The translations under genes were made by a program, and so were the position numbers. The notes beneath the pieces were generated by a model. The model saw nothing but the letters and a program-made list of their open reading frames with translations. It did no database searches and had not been told where the DNA came from. From Bacteroidaceae bacterium (GTDB lineage Bacteria > Bacteroidota > Bacteroidia > Bacteroidales > Bacteroidaceae): a stretch of DNA of 64,000 nucleotides. Within the stretch, counting starts at the first letter, position 1. Each line of letters opens with the position of its first letter. Shown piece after piece: positions 1-37,573 of the stretch. The stretch lies in the NCBI GenBank assembly GCA_017965425.1, contig JAGCPY010000067.1:62001-126000 (forward strand), in the 5' to 3' direction.

Positions 1-2098
1 TGTAATTGGATACGGTTCCTTTGGCAATGACAATAGGATAGGTGCCAACAGGTGAGGTTGCCGTGGCATCACAGCTAATGACGGGCATACCGCCTTCCAA
101 GGGTGCTCCTGTGGAAATGAAGTCAAACGTCGGATTCTCTTCACCATACACACGCGTGTAGCTGTTGGCCGTGAGAGTGATGACAGGGGCATCCGTTACG
201 GTCAGCGTGCCTGCCTCGTATGTGATATCATAGTTCTGTGCCTCTGCATCCCGAACAGTCACGGCAAACGTGCCTAATTCTTTGGTAGATGTGGCCTCGC
301 AGCTGATAACGGGCTTCCGTATCAGGACATCAGCTGTTTCACCATTCTTAAAACCTGTATAGATGGGAGTCAAGGTAGGCATTGTCCCACCCTGTGTCAC
401 ATGATAATTGCCGCCACCTATAACGAGCGGAGCCTTTGTAATGGTCAGCGTGCCATTGACATAGGTCTCGTTATAGTTCAAAACACCTCCCTTCGCGATG
501 ACGATAGGATAGATGCCGATGGGCGTGGTCGGTGTAGCCTCGCACGTGATGAGCGGCTGTCCTTCTACCTCGGCACCTTCGGACGTGAACTCAAAGACGG
601 GATTTTCATCGCCATACTCGCGGAAGTAGCTGTTGGCTGTTAAGGTAACAGGAATGGCAGGCAGTACCGTAAAGGTTCCGTTGACGTGCTTAATTTCGTA
701 GTTCTGTGCCTCTGTTCCGTTCACTGTGATGGGGTATGTTCCAGTAGCAGAAGAAGATACGCGCTGCGTCAATACTGTAGGTTGTCGTAACAGGACCTCC
801 GACGTCTCGCCGTTCTTGAAGCCGTTGTAGGTTACAGTCAACGGCGGATTTACTTCACCTTGCCGCCGTGTCTGGTCGTCGGCTGTGATGGTCAGCGGGG
901 CTTTCGTGACGGTCAACGTGCCATCCACGTAAATAAAATCGTAGTTGGGACTCTCGGCATCAGCCGCCGTGAGTACATAGCTGCCCACGGAAGAAGTGGC
1001 AGTAGCTACGGTCGTGACGGTGGGTTGCTGTGTAAGAGCCGTGGCTCGTTCGCCATTCTTGAAGCCGTTATAGGTCACGGTGAATGACGGATCTTCATCG
1101 CCATATTTGCGCGTAGCATCGTTGGCCGTGATGGTCAACGGTGCCTTCGTCACGGTCAGCGTGCCTGCTATGTACGTGATGTCATAATTCGGTGAATCGG
1201 CACCTGTGGCCGTGATGGGATATTCGCCTACCGTTGTCTTCGTCGTAGCTTCGCAACTGAAAGCGGGCTGGCTGGTCAGTGTTGCCGATGTTTCGTCCAG
1301 TTTGAAACCTTTGTAGCTGGCTGTGAACGCGGGGTTATTGTCACCATACGTTCGGCTATAATTCTCGGCAGTGACGGTCAGTGGCGCTTTGGTGATGGTC
1401 AGCGTGCCGTTGACGTAGATGTCGTTGTAGTTAGCGACCGTTCCACGTTCAATGACAATGGGGTACGTACCGGCCTGTGAACCCTGCACGGCATCACAGC
1501 GGATGGAAGGCGTGCCTTCAAGCTTCGCCCCCTCCGTCGTGAAGCCATAGGTGGGCAGTGGTTCGCCATACTCAACGGTATAGCTCGTGGCGGTCAGGGT
1601 GATGCGGGCGGCCACGTTGATGGGAACGGTGAGGTTGTCCATCGTTGTTTCCTCTCCGCCTTTGGTGGAAAACAGCACCTCACTTACCTGTGCCGTCAGC
1701 TGTCGTCCACGCAGCGAGTCCTCGGCCTGTACCATTAGACTGAGCAGCGTGCCCGATGTTCCTGTCAGCGGTTTCCCCTGTGTGGAGTAACAGACGATGG
1801 CATAGCGGGTAGCCGTCTGTGGGTGAATGGTCAGCGTGCAGTGGCTGTGGTGGCGTGCAGAGAGCTCGTAGATGTACTTGCCCCGCTCGTTGGTCGCCAG
1901 AGTCAGACCTTCCGGCAGCGTCAGCACGAACTGATAGACCGTCCACGCGGCATCCTCGCCGTTCTCTAACCCGATGTGCATGGCCGTTGTGTCTGCACGC
2001 CCGAAATTCACCGTCTCTGCCGTCAAGTTGTCTGCACGGGCCGTAAACGACGTGGCAGCTGTCACTATGACTAATAATATAAGGTATATGCGTTTCAT
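1..2098 (-). CDS. Secreted MBG-repeat surface protein, C-terminus outside the window
   Basis: An open frame runs from ATG at 2098 to the left edge with no stop, giving about 699 visible residues. Residues 1-22 form a signal peptide (MKRIYLILLVIVTAATSFTA). Residues of about 25-160 look like a cohesin-type beta-sandwich (FVLTLPEGLTL, then a GTSGTLLSL stretch), similar to the C-terminal part of the gene just upstream. From about residue 170 there are seven visible repeats of 70-85 residues of the MBG type, each with a pattern like APLTITAxxxxRxYGDxNPxF...YxGF and ending NGTLTITK. Such domains occur in large bacterial surface or adhesin-like proteins. Its ATG overlaps the stop of the upstream gene by four bases (ATGA, 2095-2098), so the two are probably translationally coupled. 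No catalytic domain is seen; a structural or adhesive role is inferred. The sorting signal, if any, lies outside the window. Confidence 0.85.
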   Translation of the reverse strand, partial: MKRIYLILLVIVTAATSFTARADNLTAETVNFGRADTTAMHIGLENGEDAAWTVYQFVLTLPEGLTLATNERGKYIYELSARHHSHCTLTIHPQTATRYAIVCYSTQGKPLTGTSGTLLSLMVQAEDSLRGRQLTAQVSEVLFSTKGGEETTMDNLTVPINVAARITLTATSYTVEYGEPLPTYGFTTEGAKLEGTPSIRCDAVQGSQAGTYPIVIERGTVANYNDIYVNGTLTITKAPLTVTAENYSRTYGDNNPAFTASYKGFKLDETSATLTSQPAFSCEATTKTTVGEYPITATGADSPNYDITYIAGTLTVTKAPLTITANDATRKYGDEDPSFTVTYNGFKNGERATALTQQPTVTTVATATSSVGSYVLTAADAESPNYDFIYVDGTLTVTKAPLTITADDQTRRQGEVNPPLTVTYNGFKNGETSEVLLRQPTVLTQRVSSSATGTYPITVNGTEAQNYEIKHVNGTFTVLPAIPVTLTANSYFREYGDENPVFEFTSEGAEVEGQPLITCEATPTTPIGIYPIVIAKGGVLNYNETYVNGTLTITKAPLVIGGGNYHVTQGGTMPTLTPIYTGFKNGETADVLIRKPVISCEATSTKELGTFAVTVRDAEAQNYDITYEAGTLTVTDAPVITLTANSYTRVYGEENPTFDFISTGAPLEGGMPVISCDATATSPVGTYPIVIAKGTVSNY

Positions 2099-4047
2099 TT
2101 GAAGATAATCTTTTTTCCACCAACAATATAAATACCACGTGGCAATTTATTCCTGACCACTTGGCCATTGGGTATCCTGCGGCCACCGAGGTCATACATC
2201 GCGCCAGCCTCTCCACCTCCTCCACGGGAGAGGTCGGGGGTAGGTCTTCCCATGCCGTCTGCTCCACCAATTACGAACGGGGCGAACTTGCAGACTACTC
2301 CCGACTTGGTCACAAACACGATGTCGTCCACGAGAATCTCGCCTTGAAGCAGCTGTGTGCTGTAGAGATGGAAGAGCGAACCGTCGCTGCCAAGCAGCGG
2401 ACTGTTGTCACCTGAATAGACAACCACATTCAGCCGTCCATCATCCAGCCAGCCGCTGGCCACCTGATGACCGTCGCTGCGTGAAGCTGCTATTTGCACG
2501 TCATCAATCTCTGTGCCTTCCGGCAATGTCAAAGCCATTTGGAAAGTCGTATATTCCATGTCATTCCGCAACGCGATGTCCAGTCCCTGTGCGGTCAAAC
2601 AACCCGAAAGCATGTCAGCAAAGCCATTTTTCTCATCTCCTTCATTTTTCTCTTTTCTCTTCTTCTCTTTTACTTCTTCTACGCTTCCCCGTGGCACTGC
2701 ACCCGTGATGAAATCGACGATACGAGCCAAGTCGCCTACGTTGATCTCGCCGTCGCTGTTGGCATCGGCTTGTCGGCGCACAAAGGGAGACGGCTTGCCG
2801 CCTATCAGGTAATCTACCGTCAAAGCCACATCTGCCGCTGACACACGCTTGTCGTCGTTCACATCGCCCAACTTCATGAAGTCCGTGAGGTCGAACTTTA
2901 CGACAATAGCCGTAGCTTCTTCCACCGTCAATGACAACTTGCCATCTACAAGCTGATCTTTGATTTCCTGTGTACCGTTGAGCATCATACTGGAAAGCAC
3001 ATACCCGTCATTGATTGATACGGAGAAATTAACCGTAGATCCAAAAGGTATATTATATTCAGCAATTGTATCACACAGAATATCATCGCCGAATGTGACC
3101 TTGCCACCGCCATCGGCCATGATAGTCAACCCTTTTGAAGACACTATGAAGGATTCAGAAACTACGGAACTCCAGCTACCGTTCTGATTGCGAACTTGGA
3201 AGAAGATGGTGTGGGAGCCATCGGAAAGCATCATGACAAATGGCTCCAAGTCCAGCACGTTACCTGTCATCGTGCCTGTTGTCGTGGTCGAGGCGTTGTC
3301 GTCAAACCAATAACGGTAGGGCTGTCCCGTAACATCGCGGCTGGTCAGGACTTCAGGGACAATGGCGAAGAGTTTGGTGACGGTGGAACTCCATGCCCCT
3401 GTTTCGTCCTGTACCTGTAGATGCAGGAAGTGATACCAGTCCGTGAGTCCGTCCGTGGGCAGATCAACGGAACAGAGGTTGCCTGTCATCGTGCCTGTTG
3501 TCATGGTCGAGGCATCGCCGTCAAACCAATAGCGGTAGAGCTGCCCCGTGACATCGCGGCAGGCCAGGACTTCGGGGACGACGGCGAAGAGCTTGGTGAC
3601 GGTGGAACTCCATGCCCCAGCCTCATCCTGTACCTGCAGATGCAGGAAGTGGTACCAGTCCGTGAGTCCGTCCGTGGGCAGATCAATGGAACAGAGATTG
3701 CCTGTCATCGTACCTGTCGTCATGGTCGAGGCATCGCCGTCAAACCAATAACGGTAGGGCTGCCCCGTGACATCGTGGCTGGTCAGGACTTCGGGGACGA
3801 TGGCGAAGAACTTGGTGACGGTGGAACTCCATGTCCCAGCCTCATCCTGTACCTGTAGATGCAGGAAGTGGTACCAGTCCGTGAGTCCGTCCGTAGGCAG
3901 ATCAACGGAACAGAGATTGCCTGTCATCGTGCCTGTCGTCATGGTCGAAGTGTCGCCGTCGAACCAGTAGCGGTAATTATATTTTACTTGTCCCCGAACC
4001 GTAAGCAGGACGAGGAAACAACAGAATATGGTGAGCGTTTTTCTCAT
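2095..4047 (-). CDS. Secreted dockerin-like protein with 73-residue tandem repeats and type IX sorting tail
   Basis: 650 residues from ATG at 4047; an in-frame ATG 72 bases upstream is less likely because MRKTLTIFCCFLVLLTVRGQ is a clean signal peptide. Residues of about 22-270 hold three near-identical 73-residue repeats and a partial fourth, each starting YRYWFDGD and containing WYHFLHLQVQDE and WSSTVTK. Residues of about 394-452 form a type I dockerin-like pair of calcium-loop motifs (GDVNDDKRVSAADV and ADANSDGEINVGDL). A cohesin-like region follows (FQMALTLPEGTE). The end, YDLGGRRIPNGQ...GIYIVGGKK, matches the sorting tail of type IX secretion cargo. Just before the tail, PTPDLSRGGGGEAG looks like a translated palindromic repeat (2207-2246). 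It overlaps the MBG gene downstream by four bases. Function unknown; cell-surface display is inferred. Confidence 0.85.
   Translation of the reverse strand: MRKTLTIFCCFLVLLTVRGQVKYNYRYWFDGDTSTMTTGTMTGNLCSVDLPTDGLTDWYHFLHLQVQDEAGTWSSTVTKFFAIVPEVLTSHDVTGQPYRYWFDGDASTMTTGTMTGNLCSIDLPTDGLTDWYHFLHLQVQDEAGAWSSTVTKLFAVVPEVLACRDVTGQLYRYWFDGDASTMTTGTMTGNLCSVDLPTDGLTDWYHFLHLQVQDETGAWSSTVTKLFAIVPEVLTSRDVTGQPYRYWFDDNASTTTTGTMTGNVLDLEPFVMMLSDGSHTIFFQVRNQNGSWSSVVSESFIVSSKGLTIMADGGGKVTFGDDILCDTIAEYNIPFGSTVNFSVSINDGYVLSSMMLNGTQEIKDQLVDGKLSLTVEEATAIVVKFDLTDFMKLGDVNDDKRVSAADVALTVDYLIGGKPSPFVRRQADANSDGEINVGDLARIVDFITGAVPRGSVEEVKEKKRKEKNEGDEKNGFADMLSGCLTAQGLDIALRNDMEYTTFQMALTLPEGTEIDDVQIAASRSDGHQVASGWLDDGRLNVVVYSGDNSPLLGSDGSLFHLYSTQLLQGEILVDDIVFVTKSGVVCKFAPFVIGGADGMGRPTPDLSRGGGGEAGAMYDLGGRRIPNGQVVRNKLPRGIYIVGGKKIIFK
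2207..2246. repeat. REP-like palindrome read in frame
   Basis: A short imperfect palindrome (cctctcc ... gggagagg, followed by a G-rich stretch) encodes PTPDLSRGGGGEAG near the C-terminus of the dockerin-like protein. Similar pyrimidine/purine palindromes occur at 7046-7077, 9144-9170, 14041-14078 and 43441-43562. Confidence 0.45.
3319..3975 (-). repeat. 219-bp tandem repeats inside the dockerin-like gene
   Basis: Three consecutive copies with an exact 219-base period (73 codons). The landmark taRcggta falls at 3311, 3530, 3749 and 3968. A partial, more diverged fourth copy lies at about 3246-3318. Copies differ at only a few positions, pointing to recent duplication or gene conversion. Confidence 0.9.
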
Positions 4048-4095
4048 AAAAACAAATGAATTAGTGCAATAAACTAAACATTTTCCTTCTTTTTC

Positions 4096-4126
4096 TTGCT
4101 CGTATGCCACATTTGCCATACCTTTG
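4096..4126 (+). promoter_or_regulatory. Promoter of the antitoxin-like/GNAT pair
   Basis: TTG at 4096-4098, 20 bases, then TACCTTTG at 4119-4126. This fits the Bacteroidetes housekeeping promoter and lies 28 bases before the ATG at 4155. A GGAGG at 4146-4150 is a possible ribosome site, which is uncommon in this phylum. Confidence 0.6.
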
Positions 4127-6056: not shown

Positions 6057-6240
6057 TGTTTCATAGGAAAAGTGGCAAAATCAAAAAGAAAACATCTTAT
6101 TCCATTTGTAAGCAGTCACTTATGAGCACAAGCAGCGACTCACAAAACAATCAAGACGAGCCGAAGACTCTGATTATGCAGAGGAGGCACTGAGGCTGGC
6201 AACCTTTCGCACCCCCGCCCATACCCATGTTTTTACACAA

Positions 6241-6460
6241 AAATCCCTCAATCCCTCACCTCTTGCGATAATCGGCTGAACGAAAGTCACTTGCAGGTGA
6301 GGGATTGGTGAGGAATAGGTGAGGGATGGTGAGGGAACGCTGTTTTTCCGGCGCTCAAAACCAATCCCTCACCATCCCTCACCATTCCCTCACCAATCCC
6401 TCACCCATAAAGAGCTGAATGACAATACTATGAAGGGGATGGTGAGGGATTGAGGGATTT
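6241..6460. repeat. Composite inverted repeat, copy 1
   Basis: Built from the unit GGTGAGGGAT and its complement. Outer arms 6241-6260 and 6441-6460 are a perfect 20-base inverted repeat. Inner arms 6296-6336 and 6365-6405 match over 41 bases with three mismatches. On each side, AATCCCTCACC is followed after exactly 35 bases by GGTGAGGGATT. Units within an inner arm recur every 10-11 bases. A 43-base block (6294-6336) is identical to 18720-18762. Confidence 0.9.
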
Positions 6461-6515
6461 TTGGCCTAAAAGACATGGTGAGAGAATGTGGCGAGACGTT
6501 TTTTTGCCCATCAGC

Positions 6516-6581
6516 ACAGAAGGTGTACACCTTACGTGTGGAAGGTGTACACGTTCCAAGAAAAAGGTGTATTGATGGTGA
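6516..6581. repeat. 22-bp-period palindrome array, copy 1
   Basis: The palindrome GTGTACAC starts at 6523 and 6545, with a diverged third unit (GTGTATTG) at 6567, so each step is exactly 22 bases. The first unit is a perfect 14-base palindrome, AAGGTGTACACCTT (6520-6533). It begins 56 bases after the composite inverted repeat ends. Confidence 0.8.
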
Positions 6582-18665: not shown

Positions 18666-19009
18666 AAAAAGCCTCAATCCCTCACCTTTGCCCATAAAAC
18701 GCTATTAACCAGAAAATTACAGGTGAGGGATTGGTGAGGAATAGGTGAGGGATGGTGAGGGATAGCCAAATCATAGAAAATGAAGGAAATAGACGCACAG
18801 GATGAAAAGGGAAACGACAAAGCGAAAAAGGAAAAAGAGGAAAGACTGGTGAGGGATTCAATCACGCCTAACACACTGGAAATAAGACCATAAGGAATGC
18901 CGCAAAGACCTTTAAATGGCAATCCCTCACCAATCCCTCACCAATCCCTCACCTGTAAAACGAAGCTAATCAGAAAGTTAAGCCACCATGTGAGGGATTG
19001 AGGCTTTTT
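18666..19009. repeat. Composite inverted repeat, copy 2
   Basis: Outer arms 18666-18685 and 18990-19009 are a perfect 20-base inverted repeat ending in a T run. Inner arms 18717-18753 and 18922-18958 match over 37 bases with two mismatches. On the left, AATCCCTCACC and GGTGAGGGATT are separated by exactly 35 bases (18687-18721); on the right, the gap is again 35 (18954-18988) with one arm mismatch. An extra single GGTGAGGGATT lies at 18848. Same architecture as 6241-6460. Confidence 0.9.
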
Positions 19010-19057
19010 TTTGCAAAACACACTGAGCGTGCGCGTGTACGCGCGTGTGATACAATT

Positions 19058-19123
19058 AAAAAAGGTGTACACGTTCACCTCGAAAGGTGTACACCTTCTG
19101 CATGGAACGCATACACGTTTCAT
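19058..19123. repeat. 22-bp-period palindrome array, copy 2
   Basis: GTGTACAC at 19065 and 19087 and the diverged GCATACAC at 19109 give exact 22-base steps. The second unit is the same 14-base palindrome as in copy 1, AAGGTGTACACCTT (19084-19097). It begins 48 bases after the composite inverted repeat, in the same order and orientation as copy 1. The trailing bases to 19140 look like a further decayed unit. Confidence 0.8.
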
Positions 19124-37463: not shown

Positions 37464-37573
37464 ACGACACGCATAGACAAGTTCACAAACACGTATATAC
37501 GAAACGGCGGACACGTATATACGAAACTGGCAGAACGTGTACACCATCCCCACGGAAGGTGTACACGTTTTTT
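37464..37573. repeat. Five-unit 22-bp-period palindrome array
   Basis: Units in the manC-rodA gap with exact 22-base spacing: a diverged acacgcatagac unit (37467), two copies of acacgtatatacgaaac (37489, 37511), then GTGTACAC at 37537 and 37559. The first two full cores are the 10-base palindrome CGTATATACG, the last two the 8-base GTGTACAC; all centres fall on the same 22-base grid (37496.5, 37518.5, 37540.5, 37562.5). No GGTGAGGGAT element is present here. Confidence 0.85.

Follow-up and report, generated by a model that had tools for sequence, protein, structure and literature searches.

Dispersed repeat pairs in a Bacteroidaceae genome match arrays around a primase-helicase gene in layout, not in wording, and point to little-known mobile DNA

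In the iteron-type origins of satellites such as the SaPIs, short repeated units lie on both sides of a core, beside an initiator- or helicase-type gene. REP/BIME elements with RAYT transposases occur as many dispersed intergenic palindromes in inverted pairs. The BT4734 primase family was reportedly first described by Iyer et al. in 2005. PMC5862659 lists BT4734-like proteins as an AEP family and VirE (PF05272) domains as predicted helicases of mobile elements; its text nowhere uses the term "inverted repeat." PMC4596501 describes BrickBuilt, which, like other MITEs of Porphyromonas gingivalis, is dispersed and intergenic, with internal direct repeats of 23 nt and short terminal inverted repeats like those of IS5-family ISPg elements; it contains no mention of VapE or VirE. 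We found no earlier description of elements like those reported below in the literature covered, although one may exist, most subscription papers lying outside that coverage. The literature examined likewise yielded no description of a role for VapE-type genes in this bacterial family.

We analyzed two loci in a 64,000-nucleotide stretch of DNA from a Bacteroidaceae bacterium, referred to as the window. Both loci are probably MITE-like, non-autonomous members of a small mobile-element family that is tied to a primase-helicase element and has origin-like ends. The ends match arrays around a primase-helicase gene of many related bacteria in layout and not in wording, which points to little-known mobile DNA within which we saw no ordinary transposase gene. 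The family link between the dispersed elements and the elements carrying a VapE gene is fairly secure.

The two window loci and the anatomy of an end

A first-pass annotation had described one plan for both loci, and re-reading of the sequence bore this out, together with the single mismatched arm (TGTGAGGGAT, after the fourth 35-base gap at 18954-18988). The outer arms measure 23 and 20 nt, each with 100% identity; the inner arms measure 41 nt (93% identity) and 37 nt (95% identity). A block of 46 nt is common to both loci at 98% identity. The pattern CCCTCACC-N(20-50)-GGTGAGGG matched four times in the window, with a gap of 35 in three matches and of 46 (35+11) in one, and was contained in 0 of 100 shuffles of the window. 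The two elements consist of the following parts.

6226-6243, plus strand: outer T5-N4-A5 motif, left end of element 1 (from the sequence; T and A runs conserved at 45 ends)
6244-6260, minus strand: outer units TCCCTCAATCCCTCACC, left end of element 1 (from the sequence and the 45-end comparison)
6261-6295, plus strand: 35-base core, left end of element 1 (from the pattern search and the 45-end comparison)
6296-6337, plus strand: four inner tandem units, left end of element 1 (from unit positions)
6338-6362, no strand: short centre of element 1
6363-6405, minus strand: four inner tandem units, right end of element 1 (from unit positions)
6406-6440, minus strand: 35-base core, right end of element 1 (identity with the left core, 23%)
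6441-6473, plus strand: outer units and A/T motif, right end of element 1 (from the sequence and arm comparison)
18666-18686, minus strand: outer A run and units, left end of element 2 (from the sequence and arm comparison)
18687-18721, plus strand: 35-base core, left end of element 2 (from the pattern search)
18722-18763, plus strand: four inner tandem units, left end of element 2 (from unit positions)
18764-18921, no strand: centre of element 2 (an additional unit lies at 18848-18857)
18922-18953, minus strand: three inner tandem units, right end of element 2 (from unit positions)
18954-18988, minus strand: 35-base core, right end of element 2 (from core comparison)
18989-19009, plus strand: outer units containing one mismatch, plus T run, right end of element 2 (from unit positions and arm comparison)

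Other repeats were observed in the same DNA. Palindromic AAGGTGTACACCTT/CACGTT repeats adjoin both window elements (6517-6556 and 19061-19120), recur at 37533-37569, and also lie within the conserved flank of one subfamily (beside the L183-L187 elements). Alternating CGCGCGTGTACGCGCG-type tracts stand directly outside several elements (window 19028-19048; L113, L166, L171, and L172), and three repeats spaced 219 bases apart with 90-91% identity occupy 3260-3975, within the open reading frame (ORF) at 2095-4119.

The anatomy of an end was built from 45 ends and then from 138. From the outside in, an end begins with a stretch that is rich in pyrimidines and contains a TACA-like word; T5-N4-A5 comes next, then TCCC or GCC followed by TCAATCCCTCACC, the 35-base core, and, innermost, about four units of GGTGAGGGAT. 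Among the 45 ends, the T and A runs are conserved at -22 to -18 and -13 to -9, and the core is not free sequence, in that a T-rich start, TA[AT]....[CT]TG, an A, and TT[AG]C are kept. Conservation of the core is weak, with conserved and variable positions side by side, and it is higher in the units. The earlier view of the 35-base gaps as diverged copies and not CRISPR spacers was correct; a CRISPR array, with direct repeats and unrelated spacers, is at odds with the conserved positions in the gap and with the inversion of the repeats around it. Across pairs, left and right cores are identical only at background level in most cases and at 83% or more in 9 of 65, so self-correction of the palindrome is not general. 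The third spacer word is the same on the left and the right in 32 of the 65 pairs, whereas permutation gave a mean of 12.4 and a maximum of 23. Exactly where the element stops on its outer side is uncertain.

A dispersed family and its gene-bearing copy

The window's genome (G000) comprises 3.73 Mb in 96 contigs, only about a quarter of it read directly. Searched as a whole for the palindromic CCCTCACC-N(20-50)-GGTGAGGG, it gave 224 matches against 0 in the reversed control, and all matches listed had a gap of 35 or 46, the latter containing one degenerate 11-base unit. The directional pattern also gave 224 ends in the genome (62+71, 12+8, and 35+36). The first-pass annotation had proposed a genome search for further copies with a constant gap, an expectation that held on both counts: the copies are many and the gap is fixed. 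The 30 elements in an 812,516-base sample scale to about 138, and we estimate that the genome holds about 110-140 elements. When gaps of 0-100 with at most two mismatches per arm were surveyed in 436,100 bases, the counts peaked at 35, 46, 57, and 67, which is 35 plus whole units; we ascribe the counts at 43, 54, 65, and 75 to the outer TCCCTCAAT word. The 138 ends, which come from sampled and targeted loci, include 65 inverted pairs, of which 49 are 169-321 bases long and the others 343-1649. Solo forms, in which outer units stand on both sides of a single core, were seen at seven loci. Helical phasing of element length exceeded the null for 42 lengths below 300 and not for the 23 distinct ones, and it is not claimed.

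Conservation in relatives, a further point raised at first pass, gave a divided answer. The GGTGAGGG word is not kept: among 399 genomes of the family, the arrangement at gaps of 30-40 was matched in eight, the window's genome included, with 146 matches there and one or two in each of the other seven. The architecture is kept with other words, as described below. Matches of the exact pattern in named genomes, among those listed, are scattered over unrelated phyla.

Copies of one subfamily (L125 and L183 to L187) lie at different places and have centre and flanks in common at 82-91% identity. A CCGAACTCACGTTA-like word was observed at the far edge of one subfamily (L185, L187, L204, and L205; right flank in L205). 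A search for empty sites, with the flank pairs of 59 of the genome's elements against 933,347 bases of its own sequence, produced one doubtful match. No clean empty site was found; at comparable homologous sites, homology either broke off at an element end or close to it, or something was present in each of the two species. Homologous sites in three close species (G121, G135, and G163) were rearranged or otherwise occupied. At one such site (L332 versus L316), G121 and G135 hold different elements, and the two ends of the small G121 element carry different unit words. The suggestion of a non-autonomous mobile element fits the 224 directional ends, the subfamily copies, and the architecture around VapE genes, movement itself being putative.

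The longest pair found (L206:1029-2703; G000:C94 92028-93702) encloses an ORF, P0001, with VapE-like (Pfam E value, 4.5e-28) and DUF3874 (E value, 3.1e-15) domains. Its stop codon lies 4 bases from the first inner unit of the right end. Unit arrays around a core thus adjoin a VapE gene in this genome (L206/L223), and in this element they stand on both sides of it. The BT4734 primase domain is absent from P0001, as it is from a VapE-DUF3874 gene of another genome (L241). The sole other VapE-type match in the genome is a full BT4734-VapE gene on contig C80, the only gene with PF08800, and no such ends were found around it. DUF6078, a domain met between the ends in other genomes, had no match in about 0.9 Mb of the genome's own sequence examined. 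The one gene-bearing GGTGAGGG element found, a possible autonomous relative of the window elements, is without the primase domain and without DUF6078.

Arrays beside VapE-type genes in other genomes

VapE-type genes are common in this family, with matches to P0001 in 190 of 399 genomes. Four homologous genes were scanned, and three contain PF08800, PF05272, and PF12990, whereas one is without PF08800. Assignment of the N-terminal domain as primase-like is based on PF08800, a PADLOC PrimPol model (E value, 1.5e-22), and PMC5862659. In the 160 bp that follow the VapE stop codon, we scored a downstream hairpin (arms of at least 9 nt, gap of 30-60) at 19 of 31 loci (2 from the window's genome and 29 from others), compared with 1.1% of shuffles. 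In a count of 52 loci that left out the genome's own element, included the C80 gene, and contained some loci homologous to one another, the hairpin followed 18 of the 29 genes whose identity to P0001 was 43% or higher and 4 of the 23 with lower identity; it was absent at this threshold from 11 of the close and 19 of the distant loci. The same hairpin followed 13 of 149 other ORFs in a control with real DNA. Some control hairpins are long, with 15- to 17-nt arms after ORF stops (L149, L161, and L162, in the sppA/rsmH region).

The arrays at VapE loci are tandem units facing across a core, built of words such as CCTACAC, CTGTCAC, CTGCCACC, GCTATCACT, ATGTCACT, TGCCTCCGA, and AAATATCATA. Nine of 19 wider loci of other genomes have arrays on both sides of the gene (L254, L255, L257, L260, L261, L269, L270, L271, and L272), and a clear upstream array is absent from the other 10. 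Wherever outer units were found at the two-sided loci, their polarity is that of the window elements; one end of L271 can be aligned with the other across some 148 bases. T and A runs lie outside the outer units at several VapE loci of other genomes. The core length is fixed in the window's genome; among 19 cores taken from other loci it ranges over 28-58. In Bacteroides finegoldii (NZ_OY725909.1), a BT4734/BF3469 gene is flanked on each side by facing TATTGTCAG arrays, and in NZ_OY725904.1 (L276) ATCTCTCATA arrays sharing the same 36-base core surround an HU-family gene adjoining a BT4734/BF3469 gene. One genome (G096) has the TGCCTCCGA pattern four times, twice at a distance from the gene; a search of two further genomes found it in neither. 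A core motif, [TC]A[AT]N4[CT]TG, which was taken from the logo of the window's own genome after the cores of other families were in view, was found in 9 of the 20 cores examined from other unit families (at 7 of 15 loci), compared with a shuffled mean of 1.66, 0 of 5,000 shuffles reaching 9 (P of 0.0002 for loci), and 3 of 20 cores in the reverse-complement control; several of the tested cores have a unit word in common and may be of recent common ancestry.

Three close species contain a homologous element, the G121 copy being 92% identical to each of the others. All 12 units of G121 contain ATCTAGC, and GTCTAGC is present in 10 of 12 units in G135 and 8 of 10 in G163; the word changed together on both ends. 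G163 also holds a 0.75-kb piece with both ends of the element that carries a 719-amino-acid gene, too short for the gene itself. A 5-kb query around this piece had 31 matches in G121 and 50 in G135, many of those listed falling on the ends or the central palindrome of the piece, so the window's genome is not alone in having dispersed copies. Palindromic AAGCC-GGGCCCATGG-type blocks were observed inside elements of these species (L288, L286, and L316).

At six of the nine two-sided loci (L254, L257, L260, L269, L270, and L271), the interval from the left array to the VapE gene contains an ORF of 143-187 amino acids. All six match Pfam DUF6078 (E values, 3.5e-29 to 9.4e-39) and have four invariant cysteines in common. 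In the same interval, L255 and L261 have no ORF of at least 70 amino acids, and the 82-amino-acid ORF of L272 does not match DUF6078. A profile of the six ORFs had matches in 14 of the 19 wider loci (L254, L256-L260, and L264-L271) and none in the own-genome loci examined. In NZ_OY725757.1, an annotated DUF6078 gene adjoins a BT4734/BF3469 gene. The presence of DUF6078 inside two-sided loci leads us to reject a single-gene element in favor of a gene-bearing form with either one gene or two, and makes DUF6078 a candidate reader of the units.

Competing readings, a proposed mechanism, and known systems

It is unlikely that these elements are MITEs of the ordinary sort, recognized at their ends and mobilized by a conventional DDE or HUH transposase, with the VapE and DUF6078 genes as passengers or neighbours. 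Like MITEs, they are short, non-coding, and dispersed in many copies, with terminal inverted repeats (the 65 inverted pairs); copy number, the predominant size (169-321 bases), and gene-free centres are all in keeping with such an origin, as are a gene-bearing copy here without the primase domain and the arrays that flank the HU gene in NZ_OY725904.1. Against this, the large gene that recurs next to the arrays or enclosed by them belongs to the VapE family, with its stop codon close to the array, and no target-site duplication was found in 64 pairs, with no excess over re-paired flanks and with the element edge uncertain.

We regard as very improbable a family of host sites for chromosome structure or regulation, similar to BIMEs, that were captured around a VapE gene. 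The better conservation of units than of cores would suit such sites, as would the location of the sampled elements, 28 of 30 of which do not overlap an ORF of at least 100 amino acids by more than 30 bp. The GGTGAGGG arrangement is nevertheless abundant in one species only of the 399 genomes searched, copy numbers differ between genomes, and a single gene family accompanies the same layout with different words.

A structured RNA, as considered at first pass, or a bidirectional terminator has hardly any probability left: single-strand folding is strong (z score of -13.6 with DNA parameters) and A and T runs mark the element edges, but inverted repeats fold by construction, Rfam had 0 matches in the window, and the strongest covariation within an end joins near columns, none of the 45 column pairs that covary most strongly resembling a helix (in 108 non-redundant ends, constant outer unit left out). 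Gene context gave no support for a terminator role, 29 classed elements lying in 16 tandem, 7 convergent, and 6 divergent settings, much like all intergenic gaps of at least 150 bp (81, 25, and 31, respectively).

Returning to the mobile-element reading that we favor, we propose that each end is an origin-like module of T5-N4-A5, two outer units, a 35-bp core, and three or four inner tandem units. In the gene-bearing form, a pair of such ends would surround a BT4734/VapE-family gene (archaeo-eukaryotic-type primase, VapE ATPase/helicase, and DUF3874), often with a small four-cysteine DUF6078 gene added. Since units, core, and units form the layout of an iteron origin, the arrangement fits a helicase/primase. 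The VapE protein, or DUF6078 for it, would read the lineage-specific units as iterons and assemble with fixed geometry across the core; we infer reading by the element's own protein because of the constant company of genes and arrays and the concerted change of the units. Replication or processing of the DNA between the two ends could start from this assembly, and short copies with intact ends would be copied in trans as a result. A protein-recognized DNA geometry, one of the possibilities raised at first pass, fits the recurrence of one architecture next to VapE-type genes in this genome and in others, the reader being a putative one.

More tentatively, these elements might represent a transposase-less class in the Bacteroidales, with BT4734-VapE-DUF3874, often DUF6078, and facing iteron ends, that spreads by replication while units and reader co-evolve, each lineage having its own word, the plan being kept, and gene-less derivatives spreading too. 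If the arrays are recognition sites and ends, the orphan genes VapE, DUF3874, and DUF6078 would become one mobile-DNA system, with a testable protein-DNA code and an origin for many unexplained intergenic repeats. A primase-helicase acting without a transposase would, if true, be a new way of moving DNA.

Compared with the iteron origins of SaPIs, the present elements differ in that two modules, turned toward each other, bound a single element and are scattered over the chromosome. Compared likewise with REP/BIME elements, they are far longer, with 11-nt units around a 35-nt core and a VapE-family gene as partner. The likeness to the BT4734/BF3469 family, in which a BT4734-like archaeo-eukaryotic primase is fused to a VapE/VirE ATPase, lies in three of the four homologues with PF08800, PF05272, and PF12990, whereas the copy in this genome is without PF08800. 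As described in PMC4596501, BrickBuilt resembles these elements in being dispersed, intergenic, and MITE-like with internal direct repeats, whereas here the units are 10-11 nt long, are part of the ends, and accompany a VapE gene.
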